From Oscillospiraceae bacterium (GTDB taxonomy: Bacteria > Bacillota > Clostridia > Oscillospirales > CAG-272), in assembly GCA_015065385.1 (NCBI GenBank), contig SVQK01000091.1, positions 1 through 56,367 of the forward strand: 56,367 bases of DNA, read 5' to 3'. Shown piece after piece: positions 21,504 to 56,367 of the stretch. The notes under the pieces are model-generated. The model searched no databases. It was not told where the DNA came from and worked only from the letters and a program-made list of their open reading frames with translations. The translations under genes were made by a program, and so were the position numbers. Every line of letters begins with the position of its first letter. The stretch's first letter is position 1.

Positions 21504-21805
21504 ATGCGCGTTTCGATCGCTGTTTGCGTCGCCCTCTCGGGCAGAGCAAACCGATGAATTTCGTCCCCGACGGAATTCATCGAATGTTTCGGCTATACAA
21601 ACATAGTCCGCGCGAGGACAGTGGGATATCCGATCAGATCCGGATACAGGAGCGAGCGGTTAGTTTATGCCATATGGCCAAGGGGGACCTCCGGGAGGGG
21701 CACCTTCGGCCTGAGATGGTGTCCCTCCCGGCGCCCGGCCTGCGCAAGGCCATATAATCTGAAACCCGTAGGGTTTCATTCCATAAATCCCTTTTGGAAG
21801 GGATT
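21504..21805 (+). repeat. Structured repeat element, copy 1 (candidate non-coding RNA)
   Basis: It shares four blocks in the same order with 38648-38961: CGCGAGGACAGTGGG (21611-21625), ATCCGGATACAGG (21638-21650), AGTTTATGCCATATGGCC plus AAGG (21662-21683) and CCT.CGGCC.GAG.TGGTGTCC (21703-21724). Predicted hairpins: TGAATTTCGTC/GACGGAATTCA (21554-21578), CCTCC/GGAGG (within 21688-21698), GGCCT/AGGCC (21737-21751), GAAACCC-GTA-GGGTTTC (21761-21777) and AATCCCTT/AAGGGATT (21786-21805). Between copies the stems change by compensating bases while loops stay (for example GAAACGC-GTA-GCGTTTC in copy 2). Reading frames inside it are not conserved. The element ends 35 bp before hflX, in the same direction. 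The remaining 21346-21503 holds nothing I recognise beyond a small hairpin near 21450. Confidence 0.7.
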
Positions 21806-21840
21806 GAGTATCAGAACGGGAGAGGAGTAGGTGCGCTTTC

Positions 21841-38556: not shown

Positions 38557-38647
38557 TGATACTGTTTCGCTTCTGAACGGTTTGATCGTACATAGAACAG
38601 CTCTGACAAGTTTTGTCTGCACAAACCCACTATTGCCCCCTTGCCCA

Positions 38648-38961
38648 ATGCGCGACTGAAGCTCTTCGACCTCCGGCTGCACAAACGCAGACCGCTGAAA
38701 GTTCGCCAAAGGCGAATTTCTGAAGTTCGCCAAAGGCGAAGCTTCGCGCGAGGACAGTGGGTTGAGCAATCGAATCCGGATACAGGGACGAGCTGTCAGT
38801 TTATGCCATATGGCCAAGGAAACCCCCGCACGGGGGGAAACCTGCGGCCAGAGCTGGTGTCCGCGATCGAAGATCGCAGCCCGTGCCTCCCGCCCTGAGC
38901 AGGGCATCCGAATCCTGAAACGCGTAGCGTTTCATTCCTTATAATCCCTTTAGAAGGGATT
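38648..38961 (+). repeat. Structured repeat element, copy 2 (candidate non-coding RNA)
   Basis: It has the same ordered blocks as 21504-21805: CGCGAGGACAGTGGG (38747-38761), ATCCGGATACAGG (38774-38786), AGTTTATGCCATATGGCC plus AAGG (38798-38819) and CCTGCGGCCAGAGCTGGTGT plus CC (38841-38862). Hairpins: two GTTCGCC-AAA-GGCGAA (from 38700 and 38724), CCCCC-GCAC-GGGGG (38823-38836), GCGATC/GATCGC (38863-38877), GCCCT/AGGGC (38892-38905), GAAACGC-GTA-GCGTTTC (38917-38933) and AATCCCTT/AAGGGATT (38943-38961). Its 3' end abuts the stop codon of the ribbon-helix-helix gene on the other strand. Short open frames inside it are not shared with copy 1. 38557-38647 holds nothing recognised. Confidence 0.7.
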
Positions 38962-39182
38962 TACTCTTGTCTGTCCGTCTCCGGATCGGCGGGAGGGTCG
39001 CTCCCGGATTCGCCGGAGTCCGCGGCAGCTGCCTTTTTCCTTTTCCGGACAGCCTCTGTCAGCAGATATTCGATCTGACCGTTGAGGGACCGGAAATCGT
39101 CCTCCGCCCAACGCGCCAACTCGTCATAGAGGGATTTCGACAGCCGCAGCGGGACCTGCTTTTTGTCCTTATCCGCCGGCAT
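38961..39182 (-). CDS. Small Arc-type ribbon-helix-helix protein
   Basis: A 73-aa protein: a basic start, then a ribbon strand and two helices (VPLRLSKSLYDELARWAEDD, FRSLNGQIEYLLTEAVRKRK), the pattern of Arc/MetJ DNA-binding proteins, then a low-complexity acidic tail of ~25 residues. It starts 3 bp after the SPFH gene and must be co-transcribed with it. Such proteins bind DNA as dimers on tandem half-sites; two 11-bp-phased copies of AATTGATATC in the operon leader are a natural candidate target. The stop codon coincides with the end of the structured repeat copy 2, so the C-terminal tail may have been reshaped by its insertion. Confidence 0.75.
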   Translation of the reverse strand: MPADKDKKQVPLRLSKSLYDELARWAEDDFRSLNGQIEYLLTEAVRKRKKAAAADSGESGSDPPADPETDRQE

Positions 39183-56112: not shown

Positions 56113-56367
56113 GTGTGCCGGGCATGTCCCAGTTCTAACGGGTGAAAGTCCCGTCGCAGGTATTTACCGCCAAGCGTAGCGAACCGCAAGCCGAAGTCAG
56201 AAATGACCTCGGGGGAGGAAGCGGAGCAGCAAAGCCGAAGAGCCTACGAACAGAAACCGGATATAAGGCTAAACGGTGGGTAAGGTTGCACAACAAACCG
56301 AAGCCCGAAGGGTAAACGTAAAACCGAAGCAGTAAATCCGGAGGTTGTGCGGCGAAAGAACTGAGAC
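56113..56367 (+). mobile_element. Group II intron, class C-like, 5' part (continues past the window)
   Basis: The sequence starts GTGTGCCGGGCATG, close to the known 5' end of class C introns such as that of Oceanobacillus iheyensis (GUGUGCCCGGCAUG). It continues with the same landmarks: CTAACGGGTGAAAGTCCCG, GGGAGGAAGCGGA, CGAACAGAAACCGGATATAA followed by GGCTA, and GTTGCACAACAAA. It runs to the window end without reaching the intron-encoded reverse transcriptase. Class C introns typically insert just after terminator hairpins; here the intron begins 4 bp after a terminator T-run, exactly that position. Confidence 0.85.

Follow-up and report, generated by a model that had tools for sequence, protein, structure and literature searches.

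Two look-alike stretches of DNA on a single contig of an Oscillospiraceae bacterium, the first of them upstream of hflX, raise the question of what kind of element keeps its hairpins while their sequence changes. The contig, here called the window, was analysed over its full length of 56,367 nucleotides; its host is an uncultured and probably rumen-dwelling bacterium. An initial annotation of the window had read the two copies as a conserved fold, and had offered a dispersed non-coding RNA, a leader of hflX or the RNA part of a mobile element as candidate identities. We combine a copy census, covariation counts, an inspection of the copies' ends and a comparison of the hflX locus across genomes, and we favour, with a probability of about two in three, a mobile element of MITE-like kind, modular and non-autonomous, which can be compared with pneumococcal BOX and whose interior (~170-250 bases) is a conserved structured RNA belonging to no catalogued class.

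Copy number and spread

The family was seeded with the core GCGAGGACAGTGGG, which at one mismatch or fewer occurs at 84 places in the bacterium's own genome against 0 for a reversed control pattern; all 84 copies were taken with their surroundings. In 72 of these the GAAAC hairpin served as the point at which to cut out the core; the other 12 are truncated at contig ends or altered. On a plain MAFFT alignment of the 42 shorter copies among the 72 (A1), RNAalifold returned only 25 pairs, 6 of them with changes on both sides, as stems of unequal length were aligned out of register; the covariance model, R1 (alignment A2), was then built from one uniform copy type, using 21 of its 23 copies and dropping two of odd length (L046 and L081).

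In the 4.3-Mb genome itself, R1 gave 144 matches among the best 150 of 1777 candidates scored, with 133 reported over model positions 1-176. Both of the copies first noticed are real, and their number, two, was set by the window. The covariance-model search proposed alongside them found the family in 8 of the 25 genomes of the genus, together with further compensating changes (see below). Matches number at least 111 in the own genome and at least 108 in G151 (the best 110 candidates or fewer were scored per genome, which bears on both counts), 68 in G164, 66 in G170, 35 in G162, 6 in G158, 2 in G161 and 1 in G165; 15 of the 17 genomes with no R1 match are less than 90% complete. Several contig ends fall inside copies in the own assembly (G000; contigs C25, C51, C99, C42, C59 and C109), and the real number of copies may exceed the count.

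Across the taxonomic family, 17 of 196 sampled genomes were positive under stricter filters and with the best 14 candidates or fewer scored in each; three of these lie in the own genus, and many of those outside it match in the main hairpin alone. A search of named genomes with the exact pattern gave three records, namely the related MAG RUG12348 (a member of the genus and, to judge by the name of the MAG, of rumen origin) and two from Pseudoalteromonas and Chitinophagaceae that we take as chance. Copy 2 as query found no match in plasmid and phage collections, and three exact patterns found none in viral contigs.

Mean identity among own-genome rows is 76%, and between own and related genomes 72-76%. 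That copies within the genome are no more alike than copies between genomes implies that they are old on average, and the maintenance of structure over such ages argues that it was the folded copies that spread. The nearest neighbour lies in the own genome for 93 of 94 own rows, the other genomes being thinly sampled.

Anatomy of the two window copies

The copies share blocks as first described: the common ATGCGCG opens copy 1 at 21504 and copy 2 at 38648, and AGTTTATGCCATATGGCC recurs at 21662-21679 and 38798-38815 as well as at 7 further places in the own genome. Both lie on the forward strand, with whole spans of 307 bases (copy 1) and 407 bases (copy 2), and in each the folding energy beats all 100 of its own shuffles (z -5.1 and -4.2, respectively). 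Elsewhere in the window R1 finds just two matches, of 12 bits (E 0.02) and 6.5 bits (E 0.91).

Copy 1 begins with a type B 5' module (ATGCGCGTTTCGATCGCTGTTTGC..., 21504-21605) with which other copies start too and for which the minimum-free-energy fold predicts two hairpins, GTTTGC/GCAAAC and CGATGAATTTCG/CGGAATTCATCG; no clear 5' terminal repeat is seen. The conserved structured core follows at 21606-21777 (R1, 146 bits). Within it, covariation and partner counts define the main hairpin at 21691-21731, CCGGGAGGG/CCCTCCCGG, which encloses CACC/GGTG and is topped by the conserved apex TTCGGCCTGAGAT, and covariation likewise defines both the variable hairpin GGCCT/AGGCC (21737-21751) and the terminal hairpin, helix 8, GAAACCC-GTA-GGGTTTC (21761-21777). 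The 3' arm (21778-21810) holds a ATCCCTTTTGGAAGGGAT hairpin, ends in AGTA and is flanked by the triplet TCA at 21811-21813.

Copy 2 carries a class I 5' arm (TACTGTTTCGCTTC..., 38560-38647) preceded by the triplet TGA (38557-38559), then a type A 5' module with an optional double GTTCGCCAAAGGCGAA insert (38648-38741), a core at 38742-38933 (R1, 166 bits) that includes the optional hairpin GCGATCGAAGATCGC at 38863-38877, and a 3' arm with TAATCCCTTTAGAAGGGATTTA (38934-38966) whose flanking triplet, TTG, differs from the 5' TGA. This arm overlaps the stop codon (38961-38963) of a convergent ribbon-helix-helix gene at 38961-39182 on the reverse strand. The only terminator-like match on a copy is the terminal hairpin of copy 2; the region holds 3 such sites against a shuffle mean of 0.8 (sd 1.0), which is within the shuffle range. 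Separately, a group II intron fragment (RF02001, 101 bits) occupies 56194-56366, at the contig's very end, after a CotH gene.

A fold kept by compensating changes

Covariation was counted in 113 rows fitted to the model and drawn from the own genome, G151, G164 and G170, leaving out 11 lower-scoring loci of other genomes that were aligned in A3 (L124-L127, L132-L134, L139, L140, L145 and L146). In this alignment, whose fitting to the structure favours the pairing figures, 3519 of 3644 cells (96.6%) are paired against at most 57.7% in slid controls. Changes on both sides affect 23 of the 37 pairs and amount to 309 cells; shuffles give 84 such cells and slid controls no more than 53, and none of 500 shuffles reached any of the five covariation measures. 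Whole-hairpin swaps at one position are a support for the fold that is independent of model fitting: across the 72 cores, the variable hairpin reads GCCCT/AGGGC in 26, GCCCC/GGGGC in 4, TGTCCC/GGGACA in 7 and TCCCGC/GCGGGA in 7, the remaining 28, including those with GGCCT/AGGCC, falling outside the parsing pattern. The fold is kept by compensating changes both within and between species.

Two of the stem contrasts that had been noticed between the window copies, GAAACCC/GGGTTTC against GAAACGC/GCGTTTC and GGCCT/AGGCC against GCCCT/AGGGC, are present just as described. The third, CCTCC/GGAGG against CCCCC/GGGGG, is probably not a true pairing. Among 19 copies of the copy 1 type, the local 5' part reads ACCCTC in 9, ACCCCC in 6 and ACCTCC in 4 opposite an invariant GGGAGGGG, whereas the distal partner mostly tracks the change (C-G 9, T-A 7, T-G 2, C-A 1); with a constant local partner and a covarying distal one, CCGGGAGGG pairs with the downstream CCCTCCCGG instead. 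Between the helices, unpaired blocks are at least 90% conserved at most positions, namely CGCGCGAGGAC, TTATGC, GCCAAGG and the apex around CGGCC.GAG.

The sequence further suggests that the second GGCC of GCCATATGGCC forms a pseudoknot with the apical loop; in copy 1 this would join GGCC at 21676-21679 to the apical-loop GGCC at 21708-21711. Among 69 rows parsed without a loop insert, 61 combine GGCC with GGCC, 5 combine AGCC with GGCT and 3 have another loop; the covarying change may be a single event, and 5 rows with a loop insert speak against the pseudoknot by combining AGCC with GGCC, which breaks one pair.

A protein-coding origin was rejected, in agreement with the initial reading of a conserved fold: each of the six frames is closed by stops in 50 to 62 of the 72 copies, and core lengths are spread over the three residues modulo 3 (35, 21 and 16).

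Which molecule folds is a further matter. The stems could act as single-stranded DNA hairpins, in replication or transposition, within a palindromic DNA element that has no use for RNA. Many of the stems are indeed DNA palindromes, and in nine cases a unit of another type A class faces a type B module divergently, head to head, their starts 99-103 bp apart (e.g., L024, L034 and L048). The non-canonical pairs in helices 4, 5, 7 and 8 argue otherwise, with 66 G-U against 17 A-C; this excess points to RNA of this strand, although a model built on this strand, and an alignment fitted to it, lean the same way. We regard the DNA-only explanation as quite unlikely.

Conserved single-stranded blocks and covariation across species might also be expected of dispersed, genuine non-coding RNA genes that serve the cell and were duplicated together with the genome, their mobility being secondary. 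In one other genus of the family, three loci (L183, L184 and L189) hold a distant form in which GCCAAGG is followed by a long stem topped by ACTTCGGC..TGAGATGGT, an order that is kept while the stems vary, and this too would suit such genes. The species of a single genus, however, carry anything from no detected copy to over 100, no promoter-like site was found in the region of copy 1 or of copy 2, and the sequence just upstream of the RNA varies with copy class. Taken on both sides, this evidence makes cellular RNA genes an unlikely explanation.

Modules, ends and flanking triplets

Beyond the core, the copies are assembled from exchangeable parts: 5' modules and 3' arms each come in alternative forms, and hairpin inserts are optional. 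The unit that runs from ATGCGCG to the GAAAC hairpin has at least two alternative 5' modules, type A (ATGCGCGACTGAAGC) and type B (ATGCGCGTTTCGATCGC). Several type B copies (e.g., L026, L057, L064 and L073) have another hairpin-rich repeat, around CCCTCTCCGTCACAGTCTTCGACTGCGCC, upstream of them. Many copies start with TACTG and end with AGTA; class I arms have TACTGTTTCGCTTC at the start and AGAAGGGATTTAGTA at the end, and their terminal repeats are imperfect, with TACTGTTTCGCTTC matching TACTAAATCCCTTC (read inward from the 3' end) at 10 of 14 positions by eye, while other types end differently.

Among the 84 copies the 5' end was seen in 35, the 3' end in 31 and both ends in 23. The flanking triplets are identical in 9 of these 23 against a shuffle mean of 3.4 (p=0.0013), and in 10 of 28 under a looser end rule (p 0.0001); they differ in the other 14 of the 23, window copy 2 (TGA versus TTG) being one of these. 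In statistical terms, part of the copies carry a signal of the target-site duplication typical of MITEs. TNA triplets flank 26 of 35 5' ends and 19 of 31 3' ends, a preference that suggests an IS5/PIF-type enzyme. The flanking triplet is itself the stop codon of the neighbouring gene (distance 0) at 6 of 31 3' ends and at 3 of 34 5' ends with a neighbouring gene; examples of stop-codon triplets in the own genome are L033, L083, L086, L088 and L032.

An autonomous partner was sought via the 5' end, which occurs at 34 places in the own genome, and no transposase was seen at the places read. Four of the places outside the first 84 copies were read; 3 hold the RNA and 1 is a solo arm. This solo 5' arm (L156; contig C85 of the own assembly, position 70141) carries no RNA and lies directly upstream of an ordinary gene.

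Genomic context and the rpmE-hflX locus

With genes called by an approximate caller, 82 of the 84 cores show no overlap of more than 60 bases with a called gene, in keeping with the dispersed non-coding element initially proposed. The two flagged cores, L030 and L053, overlap gene calls that begin inside the element, which we take to be gene starts called too early. Both neighbouring genes run on the same strand as the element in 26 cases and on the opposite strand in 26, while 13 pairs are convergent, 2 are divergent and 17 have one side unseen. Divergent promoter regions seem to be avoided, and the neutral orientation together with intergenic placement is as expected for tolerated insertions.

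These counts bear directly on whether the element is a cis-regulatory leader or attenuator of its downstream gene, hflX in the case of copy 1. Copy 1 does end 30 bases before hflX, and several other copies end just before a start codon, as leaders would. Among co-directional genes, however, the two orientations are equally frequent. Furthermore, of 23 loci retrieved for their good match to hflX, 20 show both rpmE and hflX, and an R1 match lies between the two genes in only 2 of the 20 genomes (the own genome and G164, one locus) and is missing before hflX in the other 18. The gap measures 575 bp (own) and 534 bp (G164) with the element; without it, the gap is 90-257 bp in 16 of the 18 others, while the remaining two, which have other content there, measure 542 and 807 bp. 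At this locus the own and G164 elements are identical in 213 of 322 columns, with the arms replaced and most of the core kept. The hflX leader was rejected on these grounds, and a leader as the general role of the family is largely refuted already; we consider it very improbable.

The rpmE-hflX gap of G158 holds a different hairpin-rich repeat (L202), and further hairpin-rich repeats were seen in related genomes at L125, L126, L133 and L134.

Comparison with catalogued RNA classes

Scans of both window copies and of 20 related loci brought no Rfam 15 family to its threshold; the initial annotation had recognised no known riboswitch, rRNA or tRNA. The matches to CRISPR-DR17, anti-hemB, Ms_AS-4, PyrR206, CRISPR-DR47 and mir-598 are taken as chance, all being well under their gathering scores. 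Among the titles and beginnings of abstracts covered by our literature search, none describes the family; an earlier computer prediction may be contained in supplementary lists of candidate RNAs.

IscB/HEARO and IStron systems consist of a structured RNA on a mobile element, and the RNA described here could be the RNA part of a system of that kind, HEARO RNA (IscB omega-RNA) being likewise a structured RNA of ~200 bases on a mobile element. The HEARO model (RF02033), however, detects nothing in the own genome nor, up to E 5, in either window copy, whereas it returns matches for 36 of the 398 genomes from the phylum. At 7 of 8 HEARO loci, the stretches around near-matches to the core motif contain nothing similar by eye. 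No RRXRR (IscB) protein was found in the own genome, a search in which the control genomes were silent too; within the order, 3 of 147 genomes gave weak, sub-cut-off RRXRR matches (L089, L090 and L091) in frames of 1358-1383 aa, which we take to be perhaps Cas9. The HEARO/IscB omega-RNA was accordingly rejected. An IStron or other intron was rejected as well, with no Rfam match on the copies and with 82 of 84 cores lying outside genes, unlike splicing elements. An origin in either type of system is, in our estimate, exceedingly improbable. Of the initial proposal that the fold is the RNA part of a mobile element, the connection with mobility stands and the HEARO/IscB assignment does not.

Discussion

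The family works nearest to BOX elements and MITEs, as far as these are described in the portions of the sources consulted, and it sets itself apart by a covarying core with shared unpaired blocks. The BOX elements of Streptococcus, like RUP and SPRITE, are short, intergenic and present in many copies; they consist of exchangeable modules (boxA, an optionally repeated boxB, and boxC), are predicted to fold when transcribed, and are proposed to be mobilised by insertion-sequence transposases (excerpts of PMC3049150). The resemblance to that partial account lies in a short, intergenic, multi-copy element of exchangeable modules with optional internal units. Set against the same excerpts, the family described here differs by its host lineage, by covariation counted within and between species, by the proposed pseudoknot, by head-to-head double units and by having no identified parent insertion sequence.

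MITEs, in the passages of PMC10969869 available to us, are short, non-coding elements with terminal inverted repeats, short direct repeats of the target and stable transcript folds. The family resembles MITEs so described in being short and non-coding and in its triplet duplication signal, and its presence varies between genomes at rpmE-hflX, as that of a MITE would; it departs from the same description in a GC-rich core (about 60%, where MITEs are AT-rich) and in an interior that is conserved as a fold, with unpaired blocks kept across species. IStrons, as outlined in part of PMC4227781, are DNA transposons carrying a structured RNA, and to that extent both are mobile DNA with a structured RNA; relative to this outline, the window has no group I intron match and 82 of the 84 cores are not inside called genes.

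On the favoured reading, a mobile element that carries a conserved RNA, a resident insertion sequence would provide, in trans, a DDE-type transposase that cuts at the ends and duplicates the TNA triplet. Insertion at stop codons would be tolerated, as the duplicated triplet would restore the stop. The folded interior would be retained for the help it gives the element in persisting, more likely as a transcript than as single-stranded DNA; it might bind a protein, for instance, or lessen the damage when neighbouring genes are read through, and selection would then act on the RNA.

It is also conceivable, though we think it unlikely, that the RNA is the parasite's working part, a new class of structured RNA needed for the element's own spread. 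The eight counted helices and the proposed pseudoknot would on that account recruit a protein encoded elsewhere or act on nucleic acid. Were this true, bacteria would have in this family an equivalent of the SINE, or of an omega-RNA element that lacks a protein of its own, with over 100 copies in a genome.

Small repeats in bacteria are usually viewed as DNA in decay that folds as a side effect of its palindromes. Here, more than 100 diverged copies in one genome keep one fold, and conserved unpaired blocks are common to several species. The result is a structured-RNA family with no Rfam 15 match that is abundant in a bacterial genus, MAG RUG12348 included. The family supplies a dense natural alignment for solving the shape of the RNA, and the dependence of a mobile element on that shape becomes testable.
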